Source: Limosilactobacillus reuteri (lineage in GTDB: Bacteria > Bacillota > Bacilli > Lactobacillales > Lactobacillaceae). Taken from it: a stretch of 64,000 bases of DNA. The stretch's first letter is position 1, and each line of letters starts with the position of its first letter. The position numbers and the translations under genes are program-made. Location: NCBI RefSeq assembly GCF_013694365.1, contig NZ_CP059275.1:1488001-1552000 (forward strand), read 5' to 3'. This document shows positions 1 through 64,000 of this stretch, in pieces. The notes beneath the pieces are model-generated. The model had not been told where the DNA came from and made no database searches. It saw only the letters and a list, made by a program, of their open reading frames with translations.

Positions 1-162
1 ATTGACCATCCCCAACATGGAACGGTGGTTAGTCATGTCTTAGGTAAATTTTCTAAAGAAGAACGTCCTAAATTTGACCAAGCAGTTGAACAAGCTGAGC
101 ATGCATTAGAAGACTGGATTAATGGAGAAGACTTTGCCAAATTAATGAATGCTTATAATTAA
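1..162 (+). CDS. pth: Peptidyl-tRNA hydrolase, C-terminal end (partial)
   Basis: The window opens inside this gene; only the last 53 residues are present. The fragment has a VLGKFSKEE stretch followed by an amphipathic helix and ends in LMNAYN, which matches the C-terminal end of bacterial Pth (VDYVLG-F...FMN-YN in the family). Pth releases peptides from prematurely dissociated peptidyl-tRNA in the cytoplasm. The catalytic His and Asp lie upstream of the window and cannot be checked. The next gene begins immediately after the TAA stop. Confidence 0.75.
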   Translation: MDHPQHGTVVSHVLGKFSKEERPKFDQAVEQAEHALEDWINGEDFAKLMNAYN

Positions 163-801
163 ATGATTTTCAATTCATTAATCAAACCCAAAGCAACCTT
201 AACAACTCTTCCAGAAACAGCGACATTGGATGAGGCTCTGACTGTCTTGGAGGATACCGGCTATCGGTGTGTCCCAGTTCTTGATAAGTCAGGAAAGATC
301 TTTCGGGGAAATATTTATAAGATGCATCTTTACCGGCATAAAGCACGACAGGGGGATATGCATTTACCGGTAACTGCATTATTAAAGAATGCTACTAAAT
401 TTATCTCAATTAACGCGGCTTTCTTCTCTATCTTTTTTGCTATTCGAGACCTTCCATATATTGCGGTATTGGATAACAATAATCAGTTTTATGGGATTTT
501 AACCCATAATAGTCTTTTACGGATGTTAGCTGCTGGCTGGAACGTGAATAATGGGAGTTATGTTTTAACTGTTATTACTCCTGATGAACGGGGAGCGCTA
601 GTAACGGCTGCTAAAGAAATCACTCGTTTTTGTCAGATCGTAAATGTCATTTCACTCGATCCAGAAGACGAAACAATGAAACGGGTCTTATACACCTTGC
701 CTGCTGATGTTACTAAAGAAAAGATGGAACGGATTGTTAAACGACTCGAGAAAAAAGGGTTAGAAGTTTCAGAAATTGAAGACTTGCACCAAAGCTATTA
801 A
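163..801 (+). CDS. CBS-domain protein, CbpA-like c-di-AMP binding protein
   Basis: This 212-residue soluble protein has a CBS pair in residues 1-125 (GYRCVPVLD and LPYIAVLDNNNQFYGILT are typical CBS strands). Residues 130-205 resemble an ACT domain (YVLTVITPDERGAL). That CBS-plus-ACT arrangement is the one described for the c-di-AMP-binding protein CbpA of Firmicutes. The inferred role is sensing c-di-AMP or another adenine nucleotide; no enzymatic motif is visible. The exact ligand cannot be read from sequence. An alternative name would be a generic CBS-domain acetoin-type protein. Confidence 0.6.
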   Translation: MIFNSLIKPKATLTTLPETATLDEALTVLEDTGYRCVPVLDKSGKIFRGNIYKMHLYRHKARQGDMHLPVTALLKNATKFISINAAFFSIFFAIRDLPYIAVLDNNNQFYGILTHNSLLRMLAAGWNVNNGSYVLTVITPDERGALVTAAKEITRFCQIVNVISLDPEDETMKRVLYTLPADVTKEKMERIVKRLEKKGLEVSEIEDLHQSY

Positions 802-1593
802 ATGACTGAATTAAACGCACGACAGGAAGAATTTGCTAAGGCTCTTTTTGAAGCTTATGACACTAATACGCCGTTAAAAGAGGAAGAATGGAAAGACGTT
901 GTGACTGATGATGAAACAGCATACGCAGTTCAAGATGCGGTAGTAAAGTTAAAAGGGAAGCCAACTGCTGGCTATAAAGTTTCGTTAACTAGTAAAGAAA
1001 CTCAAGACATGTTTGATGCTGATTCACCATTGTATGGACAACAAGTTGCTGAACGATTCCTCCAGTCACCGGCGGATGTTGACTTGCAGATGTTAAATGA
1101 ACCGTTATTAGAGGTTGAATTAACCTTCCGCGCAAAAGAAGACTTGCAACCTAGTGATACATTAGAAGATTTATTTCAGAAAGTAACTGTTGCGGGAGCC
1201 TTAGAATTGCCTGATGCCCGTTTCGTCGATTGGTTTCCAGATTTAGGAAAATATAATGTAATGGCTGATTGTGCTGTTGGTGGTCTTGTTGTATATGGTG
1301 AAGAACATGATGCAGATAGCGTATTTGAAAATGTTGACGATGCTGCTAATGTTCATGCCGTTTTATTCAAAGATGGTAAGAAATTAAAAGAAGGGGTATC
1401 ATCAGAAGTTTTAGGCAATCCCTTTAAGTCCCTCCAATGGTTAGTACAAAAATTAGCTGAACAAGGAAAAGTATTTACCAAGGGCCAAATGGTATCATCT
1501 GGAACATTTGTCTTACCACCTAAGCTCACTGCTGGTAAGTGGGAAGTTGAGTTCGATAGCGGTTTAGGAAACGTTGTAGTTAATGCGAAATAA
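802..1593 (+). CDS. 2-keto-4-pentenoate hydratase / fumarylacetoacetase-family protein
   Basis: The 263-residue protein fits the length and layout of the MhpD-type hydratase branch of the FAH superfamily. An N-terminal helical region is followed by AGYKVSLTSKETQ, then a central LLEVELTF stretch resembling the acidic metal-ligand motif of the family (E-x-E). Residues near the end (FTKGQMVSSGTFVLPPKL) match the family's KGQ-V-SGS-T--- motif. Known relatives hydrate 2-hydroxypenta-2,4-dienoate in aromatic meta-cleavage, but no such pathway is seen here and the substrate in this organism is unknown. It lies next to a cytosine deaminase, which hints at a shared nucleobase-related role, but this is inference only. 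Confidence 0.7.
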   Translation: MTELNARQEEFAKALFEAYDTNTPLKEEEWKDVVTDDETAYAVQDAVVKLKGKPTAGYKVSLTSKETQDMFDADSPLYGQQVAERFLQSPADVDLQMLNEPLLEVELTFRAKEDLQPSDTLEDLFQKVTVAGALELPDARFVDWFPDLGKYNVMADCAVGGLVVYGEEHDADSVFENVDDAANVHAVLFKDGKKLKEGVSSEVLGNPFKSLQWLVQKLAEQGKVFTKGQMVSSGTFVLPPKLTAGKWEVEFDSGLGNVVVNAK

Positions 1594-2832
1594 ATGCTAT
1601 TAAAAAATGTACATGTTGATAATCATGAAGAAGTAGTCGATGTTCGAATTCTCAATGGAAAATTTAGTGAGATTAAGGCTAACTTAACGCCCCATGACGG
1701 TGAAGAAGTTATTGACGGTAAAGAAAATTTACTTTTGCCACCATTTGTTGATTCTCATGTTCACTTAGATGCTACGCTTACTGCTGGTCAGCCAGAATGG
1801 AATGAAACCGGGACTTTATTTGATGGTATCCGGATTTGGAGTGAACGGAAACAAGATTTAACGAAGGAAGATGTTAAATCGCGCGCGAAAAAGACATTAC
1901 TGAATATGGTTGGTCATGGAATTCAACACGTACGGAGCCATGTTGATGTAACTGATCCTCATTTAATTGCCGCCCGTGCTCTTCTTGAATTGCGTGAAGA
2001 ATTAAAAGACCAGATCGACTTGCAGTTGGTTGCTTTTCCGCAAGAAGGTATTCTTAGCTATCCTCATGGACGTGAATTAATGGAGCAGGCGGTTAAAGAA
2101 GGATTAGATGTCGTTGGTGGTATTCCCCATTTTGAATTTACAACTGAATATGGTTGGCAATCCGTCCATTTCTTAATGGCCCTCGCAGATAAGTACGATC
2201 GTTTAGTTGACGTTCACTGTGATGAAATCGATGACCCAGCTTCGCGTAACCTTGAAGTTTTAGCGACCGAAGCCTATGAACGAGGGATGAAAGACCGGGT
2301 CACTGCTAGTCATACGACAGCGATGGGCTCATATAATGATGCTTATACTTATAAGTTATTCCGACTATTAAAGATGAGTGATATTAACTTTGTATCTAAT
2401 CCATTAGTTAATGTTCACCTTGGCGGCCGTTTCGATACTTATCCAAAGCGTCGTGGCGTTACCCGGATTAAGGAATTAACAGCAGCGGGGATTAATGTTT
2501 CCTTTGGTGAGGATGATATCCAAGACCCGTGGAATCCTCTCGGCGATGGTAACATGTTAGATGCAGTTACGATGGGTGTTTATATTGCTCACTTGATGGG
2601 GTATCACCAACTGCAAGATGCCTTTAATTATGTAACTTATAACGGTGCTAAGACATTGCATATTAGTGATAATTATGGAATTGAAGTAGGAAAACCGGCA
2701 AACTGTATCTTATTGAATGCTCACGACTTTTATAATGCCCTTAATAAGCATGTTGAAGTTCTTTATAATATTCGTCATGGGAAAGTCCTTGCTGAGACGA
2801 AACCAGCTGAAACCAAAGTTAATATAAAATAA
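1594..2832 (+). CDS. codA: Cytosine deaminase
   Basis: The 412-residue amidohydrolase is clearly CodA-like: it converts cytosine to uracil and ammonia in pyrimidine salvage. Metal ligands are visible as HVH at residues 55-57, the HCDE block at about 208-211 and the GEDDIQDPW segment (the E. coli enzyme has HDD at this place). The long stretch VTASHTTAMGSYN, then NPLVNVHLGGRFDTYPKRRG, is diagnostic of CodA. It is followed directly by a cytosine permease, the classical codBA partnership with reversed order. Length agrees with the family (about 410-430). Confidence 0.92.
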   Translation: MLLKNVHVDNHEEVVDVRILNGKFSEIKANLTPHDGEEVIDGKENLLLPPFVDSHVHLDATLTAGQPEWNETGTLFDGIRIWSERKQDLTKEDVKSRAKKTLLNMVGHGIQHVRSHVDVTDPHLIAARALLELREELKDQIDLQLVAFPQEGILSYPHGRELMEQAVKEGLDVVGGIPHFEFTTEYGWQSVHFLMALADKYDRLVDVHCDEIDDPASRNLEVLATEAYERGMKDRVTASHTTAMGSYNDAYTYKLFRLLKMSDINFVSNPLVNVHLGGRFDTYPKRRGVTRIKELTAAGINVSFGEDDIQDPWNPLGDGNMLDAVTMGVYIAHLMGYHQLQDAFNYVTYNGAKTLHISDNYGIEVGKPANCILLNAHDFYNALNKHVEVLYNIRHGKVLAETKPAETKVNIK

Positions 2833-4209
2833 GTGAAAGAGCAAAAGGGGACAACAATTTTTAGTATTCCAATGAAGAACAGAAAGACTAATACTTGGGA
2901 TATGTTTGCCACGTGGGTCGGTGCAAATGCCAATAATGGAACCTGGTTTGTTGGCGGAGTGCTCGCCGCTTGTGGATTTTCGGTTGCCATGAAGGTCTTA
3001 GTATTGTCATCTGCCTTATCATATGTATTTTTAAGTTTGGTAGGTTACATTGGTTATAAGACTGGGGTATCGACGATGACTTTAAGTCGTGCCTCCTTTG
3101 GTGAACGGGGCAGTTATCTCCCATCATTAGTTAATATTACTCAATTTATTGGTTGGACAGCAGTTAATACTTTTATTGCGGCCCAGTCGGTAAGCATTCT
3201 TTTCCATGACTTATTAGGATGGCCTGTGTGGGGACAACATGGCGGCTATTTAGGGCTAGTAGTCGGGATTATTATCATGAGCATTCTCCATATTATTAGT
3301 GTTTCTAGCGGATCACGTTCAGTCCAAATGATTGAGCGGTTAGGGATAATCCTTGTTCTTGTATTCGTCATTTGGGAGTCAGTAGCTGTTTTTCGAACCG
3401 TTTCCTTCAGTCAAATTGTAAATTGGCGTGTTCCTGCGCAATCAAAAATGGCAGTCGGTGCGGCGGTCGATTATGTAGCAGCTTTTAATTTAGCCTGGGT
3501 AACTGCCGGTGCTGATTTCACCCGCTTTACTGCTAAAGAAAAGAATGCGACTTTGACGCCGTTCCTTGGTGCTTTACTAGGGGTTGTATGGTTTGCTTTC
3601 ATCGGCCTGATTTCAACAATTAGTATTGCAATTTCAAGTGGGGTATATAACGCAAATAACTCTGATCCCTCAACGATTGCTAGTAAGTTAGGACTGGGGG
3701 TAGTTGCCCTTCTTGTTATTATTTTGACCTCGATGACGGCAAATGCTGTTAATTTATTAGCGGCCGGATCAGCTCTTTCAAATATCTTTACAAAGCTCAA
3801 ATTAAAGTATTCATTATGGATCGTCGTATTGCTTGCGACAGTTGTGACCTTTATTCCGATGTTTGTCGGTAGTTTCTTGAGTGCTTTTGAATCATTCCTT
3901 GACTATGTGGGGATGGTGTTAGGACCTACGATCGCCATTATTTGTACTGATTTTTATTTCCGTGCTCACCGGCAATATGATGTTGATGAATTAGGTAAAG
4001 TTGGTGGAAAATATTGGTATCGTGGAGGCGTCAACTGGGTAGCGATTATTGTTTTTGCTATCGGGGTTGCCTTCTTCTTAGGTGTTCATCAGTTACCAAT
4101 CTTCGTAAATACGATTGGGGCCACATTTATTGATATGTGTTTGAGTGGTATCCTATATTATGGAATTATGTTGCTGGTTGACCGAAAGGAAGATGAATTA
4201 TGCTATTAA
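2833..4209 (+). CDS. codB: Cytosine permease (NCS1 family)
   Basis: The 458-residue polytopic membrane protein starts with GTG. About twelve hydrophobic segments are visible, and the first one carries TWDMFATWVGANANNGTW, the substrate-gating motif region of nucleobase:cation symporter-1 proteins. It should import cytosine (possibly other nucleobases) with H+ or Na+, feeding the cytosine deaminase encoded just before it. The GTG start is supported by the KxxTTIFSIPMKNR leader that precedes the first membrane segment in relatives. Substrate assignment rests largely on the codA neighbour. Confidence 0.85.
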   Translation: MKEQKGTTIFSIPMKNRKTNTWDMFATWVGANANNGTWFVGGVLAACGFSVAMKVLVLSSALSYVFLSLVGYIGYKTGVSTMTLSRASFGERGSYLPSLVNITQFIGWTAVNTFIAAQSVSILFHDLLGWPVWGQHGGYLGLVVGIIIMSILHIISVSSGSRSVQMIERLGIILVLVFVIWESVAVFRTVSFSQIVNWRVPAQSKMAVGAAVDYVAAFNLAWVTAGADFTRFTAKEKNATLTPFLGALLGVVWFAFIGLISTISIAISSGVYNANNSDPSTIASKLGLGVVALLVIILTSMTANAVNLLAAGSALSNIFTKLKLKYSLWIVVLLATVVTFIPMFVGSFLSAFESFLDYVGMVLGPTIAIICTDFYFRAHRQYDVDELGKVGGKYWYRGGVNWVAIIVFAIGVAFFLGVHQLPIFVNTIGATFIDMCLSGILYYGIMLLVDRKEDELCY

Positions 4210-4584
4210 ATGACAAAACGAAAAGTAAAACGGGGTGACATCTATTACGCTGACTTATCCCCGGTAATTGGATCGGAACAGGGGGGCGTTCGTCCAGTCC
4301 TGATCCTTCAAAATGACGTGGGAAATCATTATAGTCCAACAGTGATCATTGCTGCGATTACTGCCCAAATGCAAAAAAAGAAGATGCCTACTCATGTCCA
4401 ACTAAAAGGTAAGTCGTTACCGTTAACTCATGATTCGGTCATTTTATTGGAGCAATTACGAACGATTGATAAACAACGATTAAAAGACCGAATTGCTCAT
4501 TTGTCGCCAGAGACAATGGCAAAAGTGGATAAAGCATTAACGATTAGTGTGGGATTAAGTGCTGCCTATGATGAAAATAAATGA
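4210..4584 (+). CDS. mazF: MazF/PemK-family endoribonuclease toxin
   Basis: The 124-residue protein begins [29 protein letters not shown], the hallmark of MazF toxins: a beta-barrel mRNA interferase with a conserved R in RP and S/T in TVIIAAIT. The normal length is 110-125. In Firmicutes this gene often sits after alr, with the small MazE antitoxin (NdoAI/EndoAI type) before it or missing; no antitoxin-sized reading frame adjoins it here. The usual operon order is acpS-alr-mazF, so the order in this window is inverted (see findings). Confidence 0.88.
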
Positions 4585-5712
4585 ATGGTTAATGGTCGTT
4601 TGCGAGATACATCATTAATAGTGGACTTAGATGCATTACGTCATAATATTCAAGAACAGAAAAAAGTTTTGCCCAAAAATAGTAGAATCCTTGCTGTTGT
4701 AAAAGCAAATGCTTATGGCAATGGATTGATTCCAGTTGCCCAAACAGCAATGACCAGTGGTGCAAGTGGTTTATGCGTAGCAATTTTAGACGAAGCATTG
4801 GAATTGCGGGATAACGGTATTGAAGCCATGACACTTGTCCTTGGAATTACGCCAGTTGAAGATGCGTTGATTGCTGCTCAAGCCGGAGTTTCTTTAACAG
4901 TCGGCTCCTTAGATTGGCTTGAACAATATCATCAACTAGCACAAGTTGCCAAGCCTAAGAAACCATTAAAAGTTCATCTGGGAATTGATTCAGGAATGGG
5001 CCGGATTGGTTTTACAGAGGTCGCTACATTTAAGCAAGCTGTTAAGTTGCTTGATAGTCCTGAATTTGAATTTGAAGGGATGTTCACGCATTTTGCAACT
5101 GCTGATAGTCCTGATGAAAATTACTTTAATCAACAGGTTCAACGGTGGCATCAATTTGTTGCCAGTCTTGACGAACTGCCACCATATGTTCATATGGCAA
5201 ATTCAGCGACTGGTTTATGGCATCGGGAAAAAATCACGGCTAATACAGTTAGAATGGGGATTTCAATGTACGGACAAAACCCATCTGGACGTGACTTGAA
5301 ATTAACGCTTGATTTACAGCCCGTTAGTTCATTAGTTTCATCAATTTCTTTTGTTAAGCAGTTAAAGGCAGGAAGATCTGTCAGCTATGGTGCTACTTAT
5401 ACAGCGGAGCAAGATGAATGGCTAGCCACTTTGCCGATTGGTTATGCTGACGGTTATCCCCGGTGTATGACTGGTTATAAGGTATTAGTTGACGGTCAAT
5501 TTTGTGATATTGCCGGACGAGTATGTATGGATCAAATGATGATTCGGCTTCCTAAGTATTACCCAGTCGGCACTCCAGTAGTATTGATGGGCAAATCCGG
5601 TGACCAAGAAATTACAGCAACTGATTTAGCTGAGCAGGCCGGAACTATTAACTATGAAATCCTAACTAATATTAGTAATCGGGTTCATCGCATTTATCAC
5701 CAAAGTAAATAA
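4585..5712 (+). CDS. alr: Alanine racemase
   Basis: Fold-type III PLP enzyme of 375 residues that interconverts L- and D-alanine for peptidoglycan and for D-alanylation of teichoic acids. The PLP lysine is K40 in AVVKANAYGNG, and the second catalytic base is Y268 in SVSYGATY. The GRVCMDQ motif near residue 312 is also present. D-alanine made by this enzyme is the substrate of DltA encoded a little downstream. Flanked by mazF and acpS, its standard neighbours in lactobacilli. Confidence 0.95.
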   Translation: MVNGRLRDTSLIVDLDALRHNIQEQKKVLPKNSRILAVVKANAYGNGLIPVAQTAMTSGASGLCVAILDEALELRDNGIEAMTLVLGITPVEDALIAAQAGVSLTVGSLDWLEQYHQLAQVAKPKKPLKVHLGIDSGMGRIGFTEVATFKQAVKLLDSPEFEFEGMFTHFATADSPDENYFNQQVQRWHQFVASLDELPPYVHMANSATGLWHREKITANTVRMGISMYGQNPSGRDLKLTLDLQPVSSLVSSISFVKQLKAGRSVSYGATYTAEQDEWLATLPIGYADGYPRCMTGYKVLVDGQFCDIAGRVCMDQMMIRLPKYYPVGTPVVLMGKSGDQEITATDLAEQAGTINYEILTNISNRVHRIYHQSK

Positions 5713-6075
5713 ATGATTAAGGGGATTGGAATCGATATAACCGAGATTGAACGAGTTAAGAAAGCTGCGACAGCGCATTCTCAATTCATCCAGCATGTAT
5801 TGACACCGACTGAACTAGAACAATATAGTCAATTTAGCGGTCAACGATCAGTAGAATATCTTGCTGGTCGGTGGTCACTAAAAGAATCTTTTGCTAAAGC
5901 ATATGGAACGGGAATTGGTGCTAAACTAGGCTTTCATGATATTGAAATCATTGATAACCAATATGGTGCGCCAATTGTGATTAAATCGCCGTATAATGGT
6001 AATGCTCATGCTTCAGTGAGTCATACTGCCACGTTAGTAATGACAGAAGTAATTTTAGAAAGTGAGAATAAATAA
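5713..6075 (+). CDS. acpS: Holo-[acyl-carrier-protein] synthase
   Basis: The 120-residue protein opens with GIGIDITEIERV (the metal-binding Asp) and contains LAGRWSLKESFAKAYGTGIG (the WxxKE-A-K motif), both typical of AcpS. It transfers 4'-phosphopantetheine from CoA to a serine of acyl carrier proteins in fatty acid synthesis, and it may also modify DltC encoded nearby, although that is inference. Full family length; cytoplasmic trimer. Confidence 0.95.
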   Translation: MIKGIGIDITEIERVKKAATAHSQFIQHVLTPTELEQYSQFSGQRSVEYLAGRWSLKESFAKAYGTGIGAKLGFHDIEIIDNQYGAPIVIKSPYNGNAHASVSHTATLVMTEVILESENK

Positions 6076-6216
6076 ATGGCTCAGATTATTCAACGCCATC
6101 CTGCATTACAATTCATCTTAAAAACATTATTTTACTTTGTAGTGCTTCTTTTATTAATCTACCTTTATGGTTATTATGGAGCAGGCCAAGAGCCATTTAT
6201 CTACAACGAATTCTAA
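6076..6216 (+). CDS. dltX: DltX, small membrane subunit of teichoic acid D-alanylation
   Basis: A 46-residue reading frame lies between acpS and dltA. It has a basic N-terminus (RHP), one membrane span of about 20 residues rich in Leu/Tyr/Phe, and ends exactly in EPFIYNEF. That C-terminal motif is the signature of DltX, which sits at the head of dlt operons in Firmicutes and delivers or accepts D-alanine with DltB and DltD at the membrane. Start, length and position all match the family. Confidence 0.95.
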   Translation: MAQIIQRHPALQFILKTLFYFVVLLLLIYLYGYYGAGQEPFIYNEF

Positions 6217-7743
6217 ATGAGTAAGAATATTATTACCGTCTTTGAGCAAATTGCCAAGGACAACTCAACGCGGATCGCATATGATGAAATGGGCAAAACG
6301 ACCACTTATGCGGACTTAAGCTCAGCAGTTGATACTTTAGCGGCATGGCTTAGTACTCAATCTTTGCCTGATCGTAGTCCGATTCTCGTATATGGTGATC
6401 ATCAAGTTGAAATGATTATTAGCTTTTTAGCGGCTCTAAAAGCTGGACATACTTATATTCCAGTGTCCAACGATTCAGCAATTCCACGGATGCAATCAAT
6501 TCTGGATACTGCTAAACCGGCGATGATTATTGCTGTTAATGATTTTCCAAGCAATGATCTCCAGTTTGATGCCCCGATTGTCGATCATCAACAGCTTGAA
6601 AAAATTTTGGCAACACCGCAAACTTTTGATACTTCAGCAATGATTAATGGTGACGAACTAGCTTATGTCCTCTTTACGTCTGGAACTACCGGTTCACCAA
6701 AAGGGGTTGAAGTTAGTCATGATAACTTTATGACCTTTGTTGACTGGATGCTAAGTGATGAATTTAAAATCAAAGAACATGCTAATTTCTTAGGGCAGCC
6801 ACCATATTCATTTGATCTTTCAAACATGTACTGGTTACCAGCACTACTTAATGGTGGGACAATCAAGGCGCTTCCTCACGAAGTTGTTGAAAATTTTGGT
6901 CAGATGTTCACTGCTCTACCAAACCTTGATCTTGAGGTATTTGTAGGGACACCATCGTTTGCTGATATGTTAATGCTTAGCCCAGCATTTAACCAACAAA
7001 AAATGCCAAGCTTAAAGACCTTTCTCTTCTGTGGCGAAGAATTAACAGTAAAGACTGCCAAAGGATTACACCAACGATTCCCAGATGCTAAAATCTTCAA
7101 CACTTATGGTCCGACTGAAACAACGGTTGCCGTATCAGGAATCGAGATTACTCCTGAAATCATTGAAAATAATGACCGCTTACCAGTTGGCTATGCAAAG
7201 CCTGGAGTTAAATTATCCATTTGGAATGGCGATCAAGAAATCACTACTCCCGGTGAACAAGGTGAGATTGTAATCAGTGGTAATAGTGTGGCACGTGGCT
7301 ATATGAATAATCCAGAAAAAACAGCCAAGTCATTCTTTAAGATTGATGGTGTGCCTGCTTACCGAACTGGGGATGCGGGTACCCTTGACAGCGATGGCTT
7401 ACTTCATCACAAAGGCCGCATGGATTTCCAAATTAAATTACATGGTTACCGGATTGAACTTGATGAAGTTCGTGCCAGTCTTGAAAAGAGTCCTCTAATC
7501 AAACAAGCAGTTGCGGTTCCAAAATATAATAAAGACGGCAAAGTTACGCACCTGATCGCTTATGTTATTCCAAACGAATCTACTGAAGATACGGCTGGAT
7601 TAACAAAACAAATTCGTGAAAGCTTGGACGGCTTAATCATGCCATACATGATGCCTACCCAATTCGTTTACCGTGAATCATTCCCAATGTCTGCAAATGG
7701 CAAGATTGCAGTTAAACAAATGATTGCTGAGGCTAACAAGTAA
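6217..7743 (+). CDS. dltA: D-alanine--[D-alanyl-carrier protein] ligase
   Basis: The 508-residue adenylating enzyme activates D-alanine with ATP and loads it onto the phosphopantetheine arm of DltC. The ATP-binding P-loop LFTSGTTGSPKGVE is at about residue 151. FNTYGPTETTVA, YRTGDAG and the C-terminal catalytic lysine region SANGKIAVKQ follow in the expected order of the ANL superfamily. It is the first large gene of the dltXABCD set. Confidence 0.96.
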   Translation: MSKNIITVFEQIAKDNSTRIAYDEMGKTTTYADLSSAVDTLAAWLSTQSLPDRSPILVYGDHQVEMIISFLAALKAGHTYIPVSNDSAIPRMQSILDTAKPAMIIAVNDFPSNDLQFDAPIVDHQQLEKILATPQTFDTSAMINGDELAYVLFTSGTTGSPKGVEVSHDNFMTFVDWMLSDEFKIKEHANFLGQPPYSFDLSNMYWLPALLNGGTIKALPHEVVENFGQMFTALPNLDLEVFVGTPSFADMLMLSPAFNQQKMPSLKTFLFCGEELTVKTAKGLHQRFPDAKIFNTYGPTETTVAVSGIEITPEIIENNDRLPVGYAKPGVKLSIWNGDQEITTPGEQGEIVISGNSVARGYMNNPEKTAKSFFKIDGVPAYRTGDAGTLDSDGLLHHKGRMDFQIKLHGYRIELDEVRASLEKSPLIKQAVAVPKYNKDGKVTHLIAYVIPNESTEDTAGLTKQIRESLDGLIMPYMMPTQFVYRESFPMSANGKIAVKQMIAEANK

Positions 7744-8961
7744 ATGATTGATTGGATTTCAAACCTTCCTAATTTCAGTGCTTATGGAACCCCGGTATAC
7801 TTCTTCTACTTACTTCTTGCTATTTTGCCGTTGGGAATCGGCCTTTACTTTGGGAAGAGGTTTAACTGGTATGAAGCATTAATTAGTTTCATTTTTATCT
7901 TCTTAATGTTCGATGGTTCAAGCTGGCAACAAGGAATTTCATTAATTGCTTATGTTATTTACCAGACAATTATTGTGATGGCTTATCATCGCTACCGGCA
8001 AAATAATAATTCGAGTGGTGTTTTTTACTTCACTGCCGCCTTATCAATTTTGCCGATTGTAATTGTTAAGCTCTCACCGGCAATGGTTGGTCATAACTCC
8101 CTCCTTGGTTTCTTAGGAATTAGTTATTTAACTTTTCGGGCAGTCGGAACAGTAATTGAAACGCGTGATGGAATGATCAAAGAGATTTCCCCATGGAAGT
8201 TCATTCGTTTCATTCTGTTCATGCCAACCATTACTTCTGGACCAATTGATCGTTACCGACGTTTTGAAAAAGATTATAAAAAGGTTCCGACCCGCGAGGA
8301 ATATTTGAATCTTGTTAATACGGGAATTTTCTACTTATTCCTTGGGTTCTTGTACAAGTTTGTCATCGGTTATTTCTTTGGTCAGCGTTTTTACCCCTTC
8401 TTTGAAAAAGCGGCCTTGGCTGATCCATCATTCCCTTCTTGGAACTTAGTCGGTGTCATGTACACTTACGGACTTTACTTATTCTTTGACTTTGCCGGTT
8501 ATTCATTGTTTGCAGTTGCTATTAGTTACTTTATGGGTGTGCGTACCCCGATGAACTTTAAGCAGCCTTTCAAATCGAAAAACCTTAAAGAGTTCTGGAA
8601 TCGTTGGCACATTAGCCTTTCTTTCTGGTTCCGTGATTATATTTTTATGCGGTTCGTCTTTCTTGCTACCAAAAAACGATGGTTTAAGAATCGAAATGCC
8701 TTGTCATCAACCGCATATATGCTTAATATGTTACTAATGGGCTTTTGGCATGGAATTACCTGGTACTATATTCTCTATGGTTTTCTCCAAGGTCTAGGCC
8801 TAGTAGTTAATGACTGGTGGCTGCGTTTCAAGCGCAAAAACTTAAAACAGCTACCACATAATAAGTTCACTACTGGAGTTGCTATTTTTGTCACATTTAA
8901 CTTTGTAATGTTTACTTTCTTGATCTTCAGTGGGTTCTTAGATACTTATCTATTCAAATAA
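7744..8961 (+). CDS. dltB: MBOAT-family D-alanyl transfer membrane protein
   Basis: The 405-residue protein has ten or more hydrophobic segments and belongs to the membrane-bound O-acyltransferases. It contains FWNRWHISLSFWFRDY and the catalytic-histidine motif MGFWHG, in which the histidine is residue 336. That number is the same as reported for the structurally studied streptococcal DltB. It receives D-alanine from holo-DltC on the cytoplasmic side and passes it across the membrane for teichoic acid modification with DltX and DltD. Confidence 0.95.
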   Translation: MIDWISNLPNFSAYGTPVYFFYLLLAILPLGIGLYFGKRFNWYEALISFIFIFLMFDGSSWQQGISLIAYVIYQTIIVMAYHRYRQNNNSSGVFYFTAALSILPIVIVKLSPAMVGHNSLLGFLGISYLTFRAVGTVIETRDGMIKEISPWKFIRFILFMPTITSGPIDRYRRFEKDYKKVPTREEYLNLVNTGIFYLFLGFLYKFVIGYFFGQRFYPFFEKAALADPSFPSWNLVGVMYTYGLYLFFDFAGYSLFAVAISYFMGVRTPMNFKQPFKSKNLKEFWNRWHISLSFWFRDYIFMRFVFLATKKRWFKNRNALSSTAYMLNMLLMGFWHGITWYYILYGFLQGLGLVVNDWWLRFKRKNLKQLPHNKFTTGVAIFVTFNFVMFTFLIFSGFLDTYLFK

Positions 8962-9201
8962 ATGCAAGAACAAATTATTAATATTTTAGCTGATGCAACT
9001 GGTCGGGATACTGCAGACTTTAGTGATGCAAGTCAAAACCTTTTTGAAAGTGGTCTTTTAGACTCAATGGCAACTGTTAGTCTTCTTCTCGGTTTACAAG
9101 ATGCTTTTGGCGTTCAAGTACCAGTTTCAGAATTTGACCGTAACCAATGGGACACTATTGAAAAGATTGAAGAACGGGTAAAGGAGCTCCAAAATGCATA
9201 A
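8962..9201 (+). CDS. dltC: D-alanyl carrier protein
   Basis: The 79-residue acyl-carrier-like protein has the phosphopantetheine attachment serine S35 in ESGLLDSM. It carries D-alanine as a thioester from DltA to DltB. The last eight bases of this gene (9194-9201) are repeated as the first eight bases of dltD (9202-9209). In the native operon the two genes evidently overlap by eight bases. Confidence 0.96.
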   Translation: MQEQIINILADATGRDTADFSDASQNLFESGLLDSMATVSLLLGLQDAFGVQVPVSEFDRNQWDTIEKIEERVKELQNA

Positions 9202-10491
9202 ATGCATAATGGCAAAAAGCTGTGGTCAATCTTGGGCCCGCTGATTGTCGCTTGTCTATTAGTAGTTCTTTTGTTTTCACTGCCGATTAGTAAAAAGCAC
9301 TCAGCGGCGATTGAACATGAAGCTGCAGTATCACTAAGCCCCGTTGTTTTTAAGAACCAATCAATTAAGCAACAAGCGCTCAGTGATAAGCACACCCACT
9401 ATGTTCCATTCTTTGGTTCTAGTGAATTACGGCGAATGGATCGCTTCCATCCTTCTGTAATGGCTGCTCGTTATCATAACTATACTCCTTTCCTCTTTGG
9501 TTCACGGGGTACCCAATCTCTTCCGCAATTCTTTAACATTAATTCAATGGAAACGCAGATGAGAAATAATAAGGCAGTCTATATCATTTCACCACAATGG
9601 TTTACCAAGCAGGGTGTTCAACCACCAGCTTTCAAGTACTATAATGGTGAACTCGCTAACCTTAACTGGCTTCAACACGCTAATCCCAAATCACCATATG
9701 ATCGTTACATTGCAACGCGATTAATTGCAATGCTTGGCAAAGATGGGACTGTTTCTTCGTATGCTAAAAAAATCGCTGAAGGAAAATCCCTGAGCAGTTT
9801 CGACATGGGAGTTATCCGCTTCCGACTTAACATGCTTGTTCATGAAGATGCCATCTTCTCAGGTTTTCAATTAAATAATAACTATGGCAAGCATATCCTC
9901 CCAAATGTTAAGAAGCTTCCTCAGCATTACAACTATAATGAACTTTATGATGATGCAATGAATGAAGCCGCACGTGATACTAATAACAACCGTTTCGGTA
10001 TCAAAAACAGCTTCTATACCCAGCGTGTGAAGAAAAACTTAGCGAAAACAAAGGGATCACAACGGAATTTCAATTATACTAAGTCACCAGAATATGGCGA
10101 TTTGGAAGTAGTTTTGAATCAGTTTAAGAATACCAATTCAAACGTCCTCTTTATCATCCCACCGGTTAATTCAAAGTGGGAAAAGTACACGGGAATGGAC
10201 ATGAATATGTATTACCAATCTGTTGAAAAAATCAAATTCCAGCTTCGCCAACAAGGGTTCAATCACATTTTGGATCTTTCTCATGATGGTGATAAGCCTG
10301 GATTTATGGAAGATACTATTCATATCGGTTGGGCTGGTTGGGTAAAAGTTGATAAAGCTACTAATAGTTTTATTTCTAACAAGCAACCGCAACCACATTA
10401 TCAAATCAATAGTAAGTTCCTTTCACCAGAATGGACTAACTTAACCCCAACTCCTGGTAATTTACAGAAATTCCAAGAAAAATTACATTAA
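9202..10491 (+). CDS. dltD: D-alanyl-lipoteichoic acid transfer protein
   Basis: The 429-residue protein has one N-terminal membrane anchor (ILGPLIVACLLVVLLFSL) and an extracellular SGNH-like domain. FFGSSELRRMD contains the nucleophile-region serine and DTIHIGWAGW the C-terminal Asp/His pair. DltD acts outside the membrane and attaches D-alanine to the glycerol- or ribitol-phosphate chain, lowering surface charge. Length matches the family (about 420). Last gene of the set. Confidence 0.95.
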   Translation: MHNGKKLWSILGPLIVACLLVVLLFSLPISKKHSAAIEHEAAVSLSPVVFKNQSIKQQALSDKHTHYVPFFGSSELRRMDRFHPSVMAARYHNYTPFLFGSRGTQSLPQFFNINSMETQMRNNKAVYIISPQWFTKQGVQPPAFKYYNGELANLNWLQHANPKSPYDRYIATRLIAMLGKDGTVSSYAKKIAEGKSLSSFDMGVIRFRLNMLVHEDAIFSGFQLNNNYGKHILPNVKKLPQHYNYNELYDDAMNEAARDTNNNRFGIKNSFYTQRVKKNLAKTKGSQRNFNYTKSPEYGDLEVVLNQFKNTNSNVLFIIPPVNSKWEKYTGMDMNMYYQSVEKIKFQLRQQGFNHILDLSHDGDKPGFMEDTIHIGWAGWVKVDKATNSFISNKQPQPHYQINSKFLSPEWTNLTPTPGNLQKFQEKLH

Positions 10492-11400
10492 ATGCAAAAA
10501 TTAGAGCAATTGATTGATAAAAACTTTGCTGAAACAGCTCATGGTAAGGTTGCAAACTATATTCCGATATTAGGAATTGTTGATCCGCAGCAATTGGGCA
10601 TTGCCATTTATGACGTTGACGAGGACGAAATTGGGACCGCTGGAATGGCAGGAACGCGATTTGCGATTGAGAGTATTGCGAAGGTCGTAGCTTTAATATT
10701 AGCGATCAAGAGATTAGGACATAAGCGTGTCTTAGCAGAACTAGAAAATGGTTCGGCAGATTATAGCCTAAGTTCGGTACTATTGGATGACGAGTTAACC
10801 GAGCAGGTCCATCGGATAAATTACCTTAATAATTCCTCCGTCTTGTTAACGACAGCCTTAATTGACCAGTTGATGGGGCAGAATAGTTTTAATGCCCTTC
10901 TCGGGTTCTGCCGTGAGATCTGCAATGACCCATGCATTAGCTTGAATGAGCGTTTATTTCGGTCAGTAATTATGAATGATAAAGATATTCATGCACTGGC
11001 TTACTATATGAAAGATAAGGATATTTTAGAGACTGTTGATCAAACATTGATAACTTATTTTATGCAAAGCTCAATGATGGTGACATCACAGAGTCTTGCT
11101 AACCTAGGAGCAGTCTTGGCAAATGATGGAATTAAACCTTGGGATAATGAGCGTCTTATTAGCCATGAAGATAACGAGTTGGTAAAGAAATTGCTAACAA
11201 CAGTTGGTTCGTTTGAAGAATCAAAAGAATACACAATTAAAATTGAACTCCCTATTAAAAGTGGTACTGGCGGCGGCTTATTGGCTTGTGCCCCGCAAAA
11301 ATGTGGTATTGGTATTTTTAGTCCAGCTCTTGATCAACATGGCAATAGTTTGGCAGGAATGAGTTTATTACAAGATGTTGTTGATCAATTAGTAGTTTAA
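10492..11400 (+). CDS. glsA: Glutaminase (GlsA family)
   Basis: This 302-residue serine-dependent glutaminase hydrolyses L-glutamine to glutamate and ammonia. GKVANYIPILG near residue 19 and FAIESIAKVVALILA with the Ser-x-x-Lys pair match the active-site region of the family, and SGTGGGLLA near residue 258 matches the conserved glycine-rich SGVGGG motif. The family usually has QSISK where this has ESIAK; the S and K are kept. In L. reuteri such an enzyme contributes to acid tolerance through ammonia, a known family role and not shown here. Confidence 0.85.
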   Translation: MQKLEQLIDKNFAETAHGKVANYIPILGIVDPQQLGIAIYDVDEDEIGTAGMAGTRFAIESIAKVVALILAIKRLGHKRVLAELENGSADYSLSSVLLDDELTEQVHRINYLNNSSVLLTTALIDQLMGQNSFNALLGFCREICNDPCISLNERLFRSVIMNDKDIHALAYYMKDKDILETVDQTLITYFMQSSMMVTSQSLANLGAVLANDGIKPWDNERLISHEDNELVKKLLTTVGSFEESKEYTIKIELPIKSGTGGGLLACAPQKCGIGIFSPALDQHGNSLAGMSLLQDVVDQLVV

Positions 11401-11515
11401 GAGCCCCCGCAAGCAACAGTAGGCCTCCAACGTTCGGTTTTACCGGGCGTTGGAGGCCATTGTTGTACTGTGCCATTTGTCTTTTATGGAAGTAACTTAG
11501 CTTAAGTCACAAACC
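11401..11515. repeat. Intergenic hairpin repeat, copy 1
   Basis: A block beginning GAGCCCCCGCAAGCAAC forms a long imperfect inverted repeat with a G+C-rich core: CCTCCAACG at about 11424-11432 pairs perfectly with CGTTGGAGG further on. It continues into a tail ending near AAGTCACAAAC. The same element is found at 60337-60450 with base changes on both arms. It does not encode protein and starts on the base after the glutaminase stop. It could be a terminator-derived repeat or a small non-autonomous element; its name is not known to me. Confidence 0.7.
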
Positions 11516-11566
11516 CTTATGGTAGATTGTAAAATTTAAGTTGAACATATTAGTAGACATAAAAAA

Positions 11567-12709: not shown

Positions 12710-12718
12710 GTTGTCGAA

Positions 12719-59174: not shown

Positions 59175-59255
59175 AAAACCCATGTATAGTAATTATCGTT
59201 GTCAAAACAGTTAAGCGCTGTTGAGATGGTTTGACAAAAAAGTTAAAAATAATTG

Positions 59256-59284
59256 TTGACATCAACTTGATGACATGATATATT
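59256..59284 (+). promoter_or_regulatory. rRNA operon promoter P1
   Basis: A -35 box TTGACA (59256-59261) and -10 box TATATT (59279-59284) are separated by 17 bases. Flanks are A+T-rich. Its tandem arrangement with P2 and the pre-16S leader downstream point to an rrn promoter. Confidence 0.75.
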
Positions 59285-59344
59285 AATAAAGTTGCTGATT
59301 GAGTTATCAATCAAAAGGGATTAAAAATTAATTAAATTTTCTTC

Positions 59345-59374
59345 TTGACAAGCTGATCTGATATATGTTATAAT
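59345..59374 (+). promoter_or_regulatory. rRNA operon promoter P2
   Basis: A consensus -35 TTGACA (59345-59350) and consensus -10 TATAAT (59369-59374) have an 18-base spacer. Transcription would start near 59381 and run into the leader. Confidence 0.85.
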
Positions 59375-59380
59375 AAACAT

Positions 59381-59507
59381 GTTGATTGGCTGCTTGATTA
59401 GCCAACGGGTAGACCTTTGAAAACTGAACAAAGTTTCGACGAATCAAATGTGTAGGGTCTTCAATCACGATGTGATTTGAAGTAAAACATTTGCGAAGTC
59501 AATTCGG
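59381..59507 (+). other. Pre-16S rRNA leader, without the rRNA gene
   Basis: Contains TTTGAAAACTGAACAAAG (59417 onward), TGTGTAGGGTC, and a hairpin CTTCAATCAC/GTGATTTGAAG near 59459-59482, the usual lactobacillar leader before 16S. It ends AATTCGG at 59507, exactly where the 16S gene would begin with AGAGTTTGATC. Instead the sequence goes AGAGTTAAATT, into an IS110 fragment. The rRNA genes are missing from this place. Confidence 0.75.
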
Positions 59508-60170
59508 AGAGTTAAATTAAAGAATATTCTAATGGCATCTACAGATAAACGAATATCTAAGATGAAAGCTTATAAGTATGCCGATCGATTAATCGATCTC
59601 GCCCAAAAATCATATCCGGCTGTTTCTGGTGATACCATTCAGGTTGATGAAGTTCGCTACTACGCTCGCCAATTAATTGCCTTAACCCGTAAAAAGGAAG
59701 AGGTCATCAAGCGGATGGAATCTATTGCCCAGCGCTTACCAGAGTATATCCTATACTGCTCTTTTCCGGGAATTGGGAAACAAACTGCGGCTCAGTTAAT
59801 GGGAGAATTGGGCGACATTAGTCGCTTTGACAATGCCAATCAGCTTAATGCCTTTGTCGGAATTGATATTCGTCGTTACCAATCTGGAACCTATTTAGGT
59901 CAAGATCACATTAATAAGCGTGGAAACCCGATTGCCCGTAAGCTCTTATATTTTACTGTAGGTAATATGATCCGCCAACAACACGCTAATTCTAATCATA
60001 TCGTTGACTATTACTATCGTTTAAAAGAAAAACGACCTCATCCCAAAATGAACAAGGTCGCCATGGTAGCTTGTATGAATAAAACTCTGAAATGTCTCTT
60101 ATCCATGATTAAGCACCATGAAAAATACCACTATCGGTATACGAACTCAATGGTCCCTGTGAAGGCATAA
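59508..60170 (+). pseudogene. IS110-family transposase, C-terminal part (copy 1)
   Basis: 221 codons in one frame from 59508; an internal ATG at 59532 gives 212 residues. SFPGIGKQTAAQLMGELGD, FVGIDIRRYQSG and GNPIARKLLYFTVGNM are the C-terminal IS116/IS110/IS902 domain with the helix-hairpin-helix and serine region. The N-terminal DEDD (RuvC-like) domain is missing, so no active transposase is possible. The frame is open at the left edge, suggesting a truncated fragment end. Confidence 0.85.
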
Positions 60171-60291
60171 TCACCTCACAATTTTAATATACCACTAATT
60201 CTCGATTTTTGAAGAAGAACCGGGTTGGTTTAGTATACTCTTCTTTTCTAAATATTTTTCTTGACTAATCGTAGGAAAAGGGAGCGAGACA

Positions 60292-60315
60292 GAAGTCACT
60301 TGTGACTTCGTTTTT
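60292..60315 (+). terminator. Rho-independent terminator-like hairpin
   Basis: GAAGTCAC (60292-60299) and GTGACTTC (60302-60309) form a perfect 8-bp stem with loop TT, followed by G and five T. It stands about 120 bases after the IS110 fragment stop. The preceding stretch 60171-60291 has no gene and may be the right end of the IS. Confidence 0.65.
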
Positions 60316-60336
60316 CGACGCGAAGCTAGCCTCTGG

Positions 60337-60450
60337 GAGCCCCCGCAAGCAACAATAGGCCTCTGACGTTCGGTTTCCGGACGTTAGAGGCTATTGTTGT
60401 ACTGCGTATTTGCTTTTTATGAAAGTAACTTAACTTATGTCACAGCCCCT
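60337..60450. repeat. Intergenic hairpin repeat, copy 2
   Basis: Second copy of the element at 11401-11515, again starting GAGCCCCCGCAAGCAAC. The stem core is CCTCTGACG with CGTTAGAGG; compared with copy 1, both arms changed so that pairing is kept apart from one G-U. It ends CACAGCCCCT and is cut off where a second IS110 copy starts. Confidence 0.75.
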
Positions 60451-61113
60451 AGAGTTAAATTAAAGAATATTCTAATGGCATCTACAGATAAACGAATATC
60501 TAAGATGAAAGCTTATAAGTATGCCGATCGATTAATCGATCTCGCCCAAAAATCATATCCGGCTGTTTCTGGTGATACCATTCAGGTTGATGAAGTTCGC
60601 TACTACGCTCGCCAATTAATTGCCTTAACCCGTAAAAAGGAAGAGGTCATCAAGCGGATGGAATCTATTGCCCAGCGCTTACCAGAGTATATCCTATACT
60701 GCTCTTTTCCGGGAATTGGGAAACAAACTGCGGCTCAGTTAATGGGAGAATTGGGCGACATTAGTCGCTTTGACAATGCCAATCAGCTTAATGCCTTTGT
60801 CGGAATTGATATTCGTCGTTACCAATCTGGAACCTATTTAGGTCAAGATCACATTAATAAGCGTGGAAACCCGATTGCCCGTAAGCTCTTATATTTTACT
60901 GTAGGTAATATGATCCGCCAACAACACGCTAATTCTAATCATATCGTTGACTATTACTATCGTTTAAAAGAAAAACGACCTCATCCCAAAATGAACAAGG
61001 TCGCCATGGTAGCTTGTATGAATAAAACTCTGAAATGTCTCTTATCCATGATTAAGCACCATGAAAAATACCACTATCGGTATACGAACTCAATGGTCCC
61101 TGTGAAGGCATAA
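60451..61113 (+). pseudogene. IS110-family transposase, C-terminal part (copy 2)
   Basis: Identical over all 663 bases to 59508-60170, including 24 bases before the internal ATG (60475). A longer frame starting at 60394 is only a read-through from the hairpin repeat and should not be used. The copy ends at the stop and the next gene starts at once, without the 3' flank found after copy 1. Confidence 0.85.
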
Positions 61114-61404
61114 ATGAAATTAAATAAAGACGGAAAACCAAATGAAATGAACGCCACATATCGTCAAATGACAGAAGTACGGCAAACTTATCCGAAAGGT
61201 CAAGTAGCTGTTCTTAATATTATTGGTGATGTTGGTAATCATTCGAACGGTACTGTTGATAATGTATCTTCATTGTCACTTAAGTATCTAGTGGCTGCTC
61301 GGGCAAAGTCATACCGTATTCTAAAAATAACAGGAAAAGATACTCAACATTCAAAACTTCATAATAATACTCAAGTTGATAAAGCATTAATTAATTTCTT
61401 ATAG
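61114..61404 (+). pseudogene. Alpha/beta hydrolase (DUF915), C-terminal fragment
   Basis: 96 residues. LKYLVAARAKSYRILKITGKDTQHSKLHNN and DKALINFL are the end of cell-surface DUF915 hydrolases, with the catalytic His in the QHSKLH segment; the leading part GQVAVLNIIGDVG precedes the acid residue. It lacks the nucleophile half, which is the next gene. The two pieces are the halves of one broken gene in reversed order. Confidence 0.8.
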
Positions 61405-61917
61405 GTGATAGTAATTGTTATCTTGGCAATAATTGGTGATGCAGTTTGGCGTCAGCAAAAACATAGTAAATATATGCAATCAACAACGCCAACACTATTT
61501 TTCCGTGGTGGAGGTAGTAGTTATCATGCAGAAGAACACATGGTAAATGCTGCTAAAAAAGCCGGGGTAACGAGCACAGTCCTGCGAGCTGATGTTACTA
61601 ATAACGGAAAAGTTACTCTTCATGGTTCAATGCATAAGGGGGCCATTAATCCAATTGTTGAGGTGAATTATGATAATAATAGGCAGTTGGATTTTAATAA
61701 GCATGGCGAATATGCGACAAATGTTGTAAAAGCATTACAGAAACGATATCGCATAACTAAGATTAATATGGTTGGTCATTCCCTGGGAAATATTTCGATT
61801 ATTTACTATATGTTGCAAAACGGTAAAAATCAGAATATGCCTCAATTACAAAAACAGGTTGATATCGCAGGTCATTTTGCTGGATTGAATTTTAAACAGG
61901 TACCTGCTGCTATCTAG
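61405..61917 (+). pseudogene. Alpha/beta hydrolase (DUF915), N-terminal fragment
   Basis: 170 residues starting with GTG: a membrane anchor (VIVILAIIGDAVW), TLFFRGGGSSYHAEEHMV, and the nucleophile elbow GHSLGN near residue 127. The protein ends at FKQVPAAI, about two thirds into the domain. The rest is encoded by the preceding fragment. A frameshift or stop in the native gene is inferred. Likely inactive. Confidence 0.8.
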
Positions 61918-63129
61918 ATGAAAAAGTTGACAGTTTTTATTTTATCTCTATTCATGATGCTAATGGTAGGAAGTCAATCAGTGTTAGCAAATAATCGAAT
62001 TGATGCTTCTGCAGCGATCATGGCTGATGCTTCAACAGGGCAAATTATCTATAAGCAAAATGTAGATAAGGCTCTTCCCGTGGCATCAATTACAAAATTA
62101 TTAACTATTTTGGTAATAGAAGATGAAATCCAACAGAAGCAACTTTCATGGGATACTCAAGTAAAAATAACTCCTGAAATTGCGGCTATTTCTAATGATG
62201 CTGCTTATTCTTCAATCGGACTAAAATCTGGTCAATCTTATTCAGTTCGGACATTAATCAATGCAGCCCTTGTAAAGTCAGCGGATGGGGCGACTGTCGC
62301 ACTTGCAACAGCTACCGGGGATGGAACCGATGAATTTAATCTTAAAATGATGCAAAAAGCCAAAAAAATTGGAATGACTAAGACAAACATTGTGAATTCA
62401 GTTGGATTAGATAATGGAGATATGAAAAGTTTTAAGTTAGCGGATCTCCCTAATAATGCTGCTAATACGATGAGTGCACGTGATGTTGCTATTTTATCGC
62501 AATACTTTGTAAAACATTATCCTGAACTTTTGCAAATTACAGCACAAAAAGAAGTAAAATTTCAAATAGCGAAAGATCAAGTTAAGACTGAAAAAAATCT
62601 TAATAAGATGTTACCAGGAGAACAGTACGCTGTAAAAGGGGTAACGATTGATGGCTTGAAGACGGGGACTTCTGACAGTGCGGGAGCTTGTTTTGCAAGT
62701 ACAGGTAAGTATCAAGGACATCGCATTATTACTGTTATTTTACATTCAAAAGGGAGCAATAAAGACAACCGATTTAAGGCTACGCAGGATTTATATGAGA
62801 TCCTTAAGACAGAGGACCATTTACAAAAAATAAAAGTTCCATTATCAGTAACAACACGTAAAGTAGCTAATGGTGTTGAAAAAACAATGAAACTCACGCC
62901 ACAATATGTAACTATTTGGAGTCCGTACGATACAAAAACGAATTATACAATTGGAACACAATATAAAAAGAAAAAACTAGAAGCACCTATTTGGAAAGGT
63001 GAACGTGTTGGCAACTTAAGGATAACGAGTGATCAATTAGAAACGCTTAATGGTGAACCATTAACTTACTCTCTATATAGTGCTAATGATGTTCGACGGG
63101 GAAACTTTTGGCAACGTCTTCTACATTAA
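61918..63129 (+). CDS. dacA: D-alanyl-D-alanine carboxypeptidase (PBP5 type)
   Basis: The 403-residue secreted enzyme has a signal peptide ending near VLA-NN (residue 23-25). The SxxK motif is in PVASITKLLTI, the second motif SADGA replaces the usual SxN (SGNDA in E. coli), and the KTG motif is in DGLKTGTSDSAG. It trims the terminal D-Ala of peptidoglycan stems. The Asn-to-Asp change in motif 2 (S-A-D) is seen in some lactobacilli but deserves notice. The C-terminal domain probably lies against the membrane. Confidence 0.88.
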   Translation: MKKLTVFILSLFMMLMVGSQSVLANNRIDASAAIMADASTGQIIYKQNVDKALPVASITKLLTILVIEDEIQQKQLSWDTQVKITPEIAAISNDAAYSSIGLKSGQSYSVRTLINAALVKSADGATVALATATGDGTDEFNLKMMQKAKKIGMTKTNIVNSVGLDNGDMKSFKLADLPNNAANTMSARDVAILSQYFVKHYPELLQITAQKEVKFQIAKDQVKTEKNLNKMLPGEQYAVKGVTIDGLKTGTSDSAGACFASTGKYQGHRIITVILHSKGSNKDNRFKATQDLYEILKTEDHLQKIKVPLSVTTRKVANGVEKTMKLTPQYVTIWSPYDTKTNYTIGTQYKKKKLEAPIWKGERVGNLRITSDQLETLNGEPLTYSLYSANDVRRGNFWQRLLH

Positions 63130-63711
63130 ATGAATAAAGAACTTAAATCGCTGCTTTTCATCTCAACTGGTCTATTCCTTATTTTTGTTCTAATTTTTAA
63201 TCTTTATACATATAATGCTGCTAGTTTTATTCCCCAAGCTAGAAAAACAAGTCAAATTCTTAGTCAAAATCGGCTTCGTGCTCCTAATATTCACCGTTCC
63301 TCTGAAAATTGGGCATACCCTAAGATCGGTAACGTTCCTATTGAATTGATCGCCATCAAACAAGCAAAAAGGATTCTAGTTATCAACTCAAATAAGCGCC
63401 AAGTTATTTACATTATTCACGCACAGATTAATCTACCAGCACAAAAAAATTCTTTCCGCTTACTTCACGCTCGGGGGCAGCAAATTTATCATATTAATGG
63501 TTCCCAGCAAGCCATCGCTAAGAATTGGTTAGGAATTACTAATGGGAACTACATTGAAACCCCCGTTACAGATATGAATAATCATCAGGTCTCACGAAAT
63601 CTACGAAAAGCACCCAAAATTGAAAATACTATCCAGGTGTCAATCCCCGATGCTAAATGGCTGCAAACTTTACCTGAAAACACACCCTTAATAGTTAAGG
63701 AGGACTATTAA
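63130..63711 (+). CDS. Membrane-anchored hypothetical protein
   Basis: 193 residues: a single N-terminal helix (LLFISTGLFLIFVLIFNLYTY), then an extracellular basic domain with beta-like segments (KRILVINSNKRQVIYIIHAQINLP; GQQIYHINGSQQAIAKNWLGI). Residues such as YPKIGNVPIELIAIKQAKRILVI recall short wall-linked proteins, but I recognise no family. The high Asn/Gln/Lys content fits a surface protein. Followed at once by another small membrane protein. Confidence 0.55.
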   Translation: MNKELKSLLFISTGLFLIFVLIFNLYTYNAASFIPQARKTSQILSQNRLRAPNIHRSSENWAYPKIGNVPIELIAIKQAKRILVINSNKRQVIYIIHAQINLPAQKNSFRLLHARGQQIYHINGSQQAIAKNWLGITNGNYIETPVTDMNNHQVSRNLRKAPKIENTIQVSIPDAKWLQTLPENTPLIVKEDY

Positions 63712-63912
63712 ATGATTTCACGCCTAAAACATGGACGGTTTTTTAATCACTTACTTGGAAGTAATCTTATTTTGCTAATTATAATTAGCTTTTATAATCT
63801 TCTTACATACTTCATCCCATTAATCAAAATTTCAATCATTCAAATAATTTTATTCTTTCTAATAATTGACCTACTCTTGATTATCTTTAAGATTTTAGCG
63901 CTATACAATTAG
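63712..63912 (+). CDS. Small two-helix membrane protein
   Basis: 66 residues with two hydrophobic helices (LLGSNLILLIIISFYNLLTYF and IIQIILFFLIIDLLLIIFKIL) joined by a short loop, basic at the N-terminus (RLKHGRFF). No known family is recognised. The ATG follows GGAGG (in AAGGAGGACTATTAA), a good ribosome binding site in the end of the preceding gene, so these two genes are natively close and co-translated. Confidence 0.6.
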   Translation: MISRLKHGRFFNHLLGSNLILLIIISFYNLLTYFIPLIKISIIQIILFFLIIDLLLIIFKILALYN

Positions 63913-64000
63913 TTGAACTTACGAGTAAAGCATTGGATTTATGGAATATTTTGCTTATTAGTAGCAATAATTGCAATTGGTCCAGAATTACGTGCTACTT
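63913..64000 (+). CDS. Start of a membrane protein (partial)
   Basis: A TTG start gives 29 residues up to the window edge: NLRVKHWIYGIFCLLVAIIAIGPELRAT, a basic start followed by one membrane helix. The rest lies outside the window, so no family can be assigned. Confidence 0.5.
   Translation, partial: MNLRVKHWIYGIFCLLVAIIAIGPELRAT

Follow-up and report, generated by a model that had tools for sequence, protein, structure and literature searches.

Gene arrangement in the window

The window is a 64-kb stretch of DNA, bases 1488001–1552000 of a record that consists of a single contig of 2,085,667 bases. It carries protein genes, dispersed repeat units and features nested within these units (Table 1), and its coding share is 0.969. 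With 66 gene ends listed, the gene density is 1.03 per kb. The quality figures of the record are a completeness of 100 and a contamination of 0.96. No tRNA genes are found in the 64-kb window.

Neighbouring genes follow one another without spacers. A start codon (ATG, GTG or TTG) is present immediately after 62 of the 66 listed gene ends, and the gene end at 63912 runs into TTG, which gives 63 of 67; the count covers gene ends outside the repeat units, with ORFs inside those units excluded. The background level is 269 of 3907 (6.9%), i.e., the stop triplets in any frame that are directly followed by a start codon. The earlier note had described this arrangement from the sequence and quoted the junctions 801/802, 1593/1594, 2832/2833, 24954/24955 and 31680/31681. 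All five are exact stop/start junctions with zero bases between. The four exceptions are the gene ends at 11400, 23444, 36459 and 59174, each of which is followed by a dispersed-repeat unit.

The genes are also found on one strand. When ORFs of 40 aa or more are tiled greedily, 72 of the 73 are on the plus strand, and the sole minus ORF (46 aa, positions 59328–59468) is within a repeat unit. At a minimum of 60 aa, all 68 tiled ORFs are on the plus strand; other minus ORFs in the plain ORF list overlap longer plus ORFs. This agrees with the earlier claim that the minus strand has no real gene. Ribosome binding sites had also been said to be missing; a Shine-Dalgarno (SD)-like motif is present 5' of 6 of the 62 abutting starts, compared with 4% at random positions.

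Table 1. Segments and features of the 64-kb window. G046 is the nearest genome compared; L013 is L. balticus and L014 is L. reuteri WF-AA1-C.
Feature	Positions	Strand	Remarks
Gene units, zero spacing	1–11400	+	Same order in G046 (C3:289–304 kb), where gaps, overlaps and both strands are found
Reversed pair, 10-base overlap in G046	1594–4209	+	Shared 10 bases at far ends
Junction 9201/9202, 8 bases written twice	9180–9220	+	G046 genes overlap by 8
Repeat units: dispersed repeat, 72-base piece twice, group II intron piece	11401–12797	+	
Two ORFs, exact second copies of nested genes	12798–13586	+	Written after their container
Gene units	13587–23444	+	Syntenic with G046:C3:1256949–1267451; 8-base doublings at 14117, 16202
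Dispersed repeat unit without long ORF	23445–23634	+	10 matches in record including self
Four genes	23635–26592	+	Opposite strand from neighbours in G046, L013, L014
Gene units including junction 28215/28216	26593–33843	+	G046 has a gap of 292 bases with a T-box leader at this junction
YfhO membrane protein gene	33844–36459	+	Opposite strand from preceding neighbours in G046, L013, L014
Perfect palindrome, 254 bases, loopless	36460–36713		127-base repeat on +, then on −
Gene units, abutting	36714–59174	+	20 bases doubled at 48389/48390; G046 overlap 20
Repeat unit(s) with IS110-type transposase ORF (59532–60170) and non-coding flanks	59175–60393	+	
Stretch with exact 663-base second copy of 59508–60170	60394–61113	+	Copy at 60451–61113
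Gene units, abutting, last partial at window end	61114–64000	+	Near G046 C3:1963–1968 kb, gaps, both strands

Repeat units and nested features

A few short raw fragments had been noted between the genes. These fragments are present, and they can be described more precisely as repeat units whose nested genes are written again. Nested features appear twice in the window as pairs of 282, 507, 663 and 72 bases. Positions 11894–12175 and 12203–12709 are repeated exactly at 12798–13079 and 13080–13586, respectively, and the 72-base piece, which has no stop, is found at 11622–11693 and again at 11694–11765. The 3' RNA domain of a group II intron is located at 12717–12793, and 13080–13586 has a GIIM maturase domain and represents a piece of a group II intron maturase.

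The units are multi-copy. In addition to 23445–23634 (Table 1), there are 28 matches in the record for 11401–11693, 13 for 36460–36586 (both palindrome arms included) and 10 for 59175–59531; these counts include the self match and weak matches. The last 127 bases of 11401–11693 recur exactly elsewhere in the record. Positions 11401–11515 and 60276–60449 represent short dispersed repeats of approximately 110–175 bases that have many copies in the record with 82–97% identity and are also present in G046.

Comparison with related genomes

The genes of the window are 92–100% identical to those of G046 (98% at positions 29263–31680), yet their spacing and strands differ. Fifty-two gene-gene junctions can be placed in G046, after leaving out those where either unit is less than 90% covered, lies in another block or more than 3 kb away, or is a repeat fragment. 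None of the 52 is a zero-gap junction and the median spacing is 59.5 bases. There are seven one-base overlaps, five longer overlaps, seven spacings of 1–19 bases, 27 of 20–300 bases and six of more than 300 bases, although gaps in this last class may hold other genes. Strand flips are found at 10 of the 52 junctions. The earlier note had predicted that alignment to a relative would reveal some 20–300 missing bases between most genes, together with strand flips, and the comparison with G046 bears this out. Four strand flips are present in G046 between positions 49941 and 53481 of the window. The last unit of the first gene segment, 10492–11400, is only 37% placed in G046.

The five junctions quoted above show the range of these differences. 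The G046 counterpart of 801/802 has 2047 bases and a strand flip, and those of 1593/1594, 24954/24955 and 31680/31681 have 384, 138 and 185 bases, respectively. The counterpart of 2832/2833 is a 10-base overlap, and the two genes run against the block direction in G046. For 60 genes compared in both, an SD-like motif is found 5' of 42 starts in G046 and of 5 starts in the window. The T-box leader in the 292-base gap of G046 (positions 1251551–1251758) is missing from the window before position 28216.

The assignment to L. reuteri in the earlier note fits at the level of the group, as L. reuteri WF-AA1-C matches the window from 20.1 to 36.5 kb at 89–96% DNA identity. In this strain and in L. 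balticus the genes of the window from 23.6 to 36.5 kb are in the same order with bases between most neighbours, and the two segments at 23635–26592 and 33844–36459 are on the strand opposite to the rest. Genome G047 (94% identity at 29263–31680) gives the same picture as G046 in its single matching block; two zero-gap pairs of G047 in this comparison are pieces within one repeat unit and not gene-gene junctions.

GC skew gives a mixed result with no clear support for strand flipping. It is near zero at 24–28 and 32–36 kb, where genes are flipped, but also at 8–12 and 60–64 kb, and it is high at 1–4 kb although most genes there are flipped in G046. Skew is not used as evidence.

The genes had been said to stand in map order. 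This is the case inside blocks and does not extend across the window, which joins four blocks that are separate in G046. All three switches between blocks occur at repeat units; repeat 23445–23634 lies at no block switch. It is possible that the switches at repeats represent real rearrangements between strains.

Doubled bases at junctions

Doubled bases are found across the window junctions at 9201, 14117, 16202 and 48389, with lengths of 8, 8, 8 and 20 bases. The genes at the corresponding positions in G046 overlap by 8, 8, 8 and 20 bases. Where genes are exported singly, the bases common to two overlapping genes must appear twice, and the exact agreement of doubled bases with G046 overlaps implies that each gene was exported whole.

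There are five G046 overlaps of more than one base. Four are doubled at the junction itself. The fifth, of 10 bases, belongs to a reversed pair and is doubled at the outer ends of the two genes, where the unit that begins at 1594 opens with the same 10 bases that close the unit ending at 4209. This implies that each gene of the pair was reverse-complemented alone while the positional order was kept.

Doublings of at least 4 bases are present at 5 of 62 junctions, compared with a mean of 1.08 and a maximum of 4 in 2000 shuffles. One of them, a 4-base doubling at 55664, has no G046 overlap (a distance of 1316 bases separates the genes in G046) and may be due to chance. A single shared base is found at 42 of the 62 window junctions, so the seven one-base overlaps in G046 are uninformative.

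Extent of the pattern along the record

The joining reaches beyond the window. Twenty stretches were sampled, amounting to 398 kb and 19% of the 2.09-Mb contig, and zero-gap chains are present in all 20. Neighbouring ORF pairs with zero gap amount to 357 of 433 in these stretches and 0 of 173 in eight relatives, i.e., eight of the 12 loci from a scan of named relatives, approximately 22.4 kb each, with the four shorter loci left out. A recount that takes pairs on either strand instead of plus-plus pairs gives the same totals. In 14 stretches of G046 and G047, 2 of 280 pairs have zero gap. The plus strand carries 431 of the 453 ORFs in the 20 stretches, and in the eight relatives 137 of 181 ORFs share the strand of the query gene.

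The zero-gap share per stretch is lowest in L064 (10 of 31 pairs) and complete in L050 and L055 (22 of 22). L064 is rich in tRNA, 5S rRNA and group II intron units. L045, with 9 of 16, has a repeat at its very start. L045 is also the start of the contig, where positions 1–249 (C1:1–249) consist of the 72-base piece of 11622–11693 and, after it, part of this repeat in reverse. The contig opens with a repeat piece, and thus the record starts at no usual origin gene.

RNA genes are part of the chain. There are 21 tRNAs at positions 6264–7882 of L064, with a spacing that varies from an overlap of 2 bases to 16 bases apart in ARAGORN coordinates. The tRNA runs are nearly head to tail, with exceptions such as two tRNAs in L047 that are 69 and 135 bases from the preceding one. 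The 5S rRNA is found in three side-by-side pairs, two in opposite directions and one in the same direction. In L057 a tRNA-Val and tRNA-Glu pair is written both ways. Side-by-side doublings of tRNA-Val/tRNA-Glu and 5S rRNA in opposite directions are located at L057:9032–9334, L057:9429–9665 and L064:17661–17898, and they resemble the palindrome of the window.

T-box leaders are close to absent. The record has one match, which is below the family cut-off (E value 1.1e-7), compared with 14–31 in 49 congeners.

Origin of the record

The window is almost certainly an artefact, part of a record made by software and not a natural chromosome, in which features have been joined without spacers. The record is an end-to-end series of annotation features belonging to several types, as shown by the doubled overlaps and the doubled nested units. 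The gene spacing and the strands in the window carry no biology; the genes themselves look normal. The caution in the earlier note that gene-distance, operon or strand analysis would be misleading is borne out. Its further remark that no living genome could express such a layout is plausible and is not needed for the conclusion.

In the proposed origin, the assembly of an L. reuteri-group strain would have been annotated, and its features (CDS, tRNA, rRNA and dispersed repeats) would then have been exported singly, each in its own reading direction. The feature list, kept in positional order, would have been joined without spacers into one sequence of 2,085,667 bases. A single export-and-join step is what we infer from these observations. 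The raw fragments represent multi-copy repeats, so repeats are among the exported units; RAST/PATRIC-like pipelines list repeat regions beside genes, and there is about an even chance that the annotation came from such a pipeline.

A narrower version of this origin is the literal reading of the earlier note, in which coding sequences and nothing else were concatenated. The window is nearly all CDS, which agrees with that reading. As an exclusive description it is very unlikely: it is refuted by the tRNA and 5S rRNA genes in the chain elsewhere in the record and by the repeat units with non-coding parts between genes, all of which have been joined as well. It is also conceivable that the artefact is confined to the window as a local assembly error; this has hardly any probability, as no observation favours it and the zero-gap chains in all 20 further stretches along the contig refute it. 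The deposit might instead be sound, with the joining done later, in the collection that serves the genome. G046 and G047 come from the same service and have normal gaps, and 49 congeners keep their T-boxes. The service is therefore unlikely to have a general fault, and later joining is improbable, if less sharply so.

The biological alternative is a real chromosome that has undergone extreme streamlining, with loss of intergenic DNA and placement of all genes on one strand. The single contig with 100% completeness and the intact long ORFs would fit such a chromosome. Nevertheless it is virtually inconceivable, since a relative that is 92–100% identical per gene keeps normal gaps and strands, and the short spacing is not common to relatives (0 of 52 G046 junctions, 0 of 173 pairs, 2 of 280 pairs). 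The T-box leaders persist in the 49 congeners, and an SD-like motif precedes just 6 of the 62 abutting starts. Streamlining would not double overlapping or nested stretches, nor would it explain a loopless 254-base palindrome between genes. The joining of exported features remains the preferred explanation, and none of the observations contradicts it.

The exact repeats give an indication of the assembly from which the features were taken. With a lower limit of 60 bases, the window and the 20 stretches have 172 maximal exact matches. Of these, 19 have a length of 126–128 bases and only 17 exceed 130 bases, the latter including the export duplicates, which are 282, 507 and 663 bases long. For G046, nine stretches have 42 such matches, 32 of them longer than 130 bases, a set that differs in size from the 172 of the record. 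Pieces of 127 bases are found at the end of 11401–11693 and as the palindrome arm of 36460–36713. A length of 127 is a k-mer length of assemblers, and the piling up of exact repeats at 126–128 bases suggests a short-read draft (k = 127). Judged from these sequence matches and from the three block switches at repeat units, the source is probably such a draft with contigs sharing 127-base ends.

Similar records and consequences

A concatenated feature FASTA export of the 'ffn' type has the same properties, i.e., each feature in its own direction, positional order, doubled overlaps and nested features, and no intergenic DNA. Unlike such an export, the record is one contig that is used as a genome. 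The concatenated-gene input of phylogenomics likewise has genes without spacers, but it is a chosen gene set, whereas the record combines features of different types from a single genome, ordered by position. A search of the literature on gene-to-sequence ratio, concatenated coding sequences and RASTtk repeat regions found no paper describing the record.

NCBI flags assemblies with an 'abnormal gene to sequence ratio', a quality label for records whose gene density is wrong; the typical range is given as 0.8–1.2 genes per kb, with flagging outside 0.5–1.5 (PMC12407952). In contrast to assemblies flagged in this way, the window at 1.03 per kb is inside the typical range. Judged by the window, the ratio check described there is therefore probably blind to the record. 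The completeness figures miss the fault as well. Simple detectors would be the share of stops directly followed by starts and the missing T-boxes, of which the 49 other genomes have 14–31.

It is somewhat more probable than otherwise that, in a species-level collection, a gene-only pseudo-chromosome derived from a draft is the one genome that represents its species, and that more such records may exist. If this is true, a record with ordinary completeness and density could distort, with no warning sign, any work on promoters, operons, strand bias, skew, leaders and repeats. This is a matter of data quality and not of biology. Intergenic distance, operons, strand bias, GC skew, promoters, riboswitches and repeats taken from the record are unreliable, and the doubling of nested features makes counts of repeats and transposases too high. 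The set of genes and their protein sequences should stay usable.

Individual genes

Four consecutive genes at positions 38292–48005 encode secreted proteins that have both a KxYKxGKxW signal peptide and choline-binding-type repeats. These surface-protein genes have no good match in the stretches of G046 that were compared. Their domains are Lreu_0056-like, GH53 and C39-like peptidase, together with a weak M23 peptidase match that is below the cut-off. Positions 4210–4584 encode a PemK/MazF-like toxin (Pfam PF02452), one partner of a type II toxin-antitoxin pair, directly before the unit at 4585–5712.
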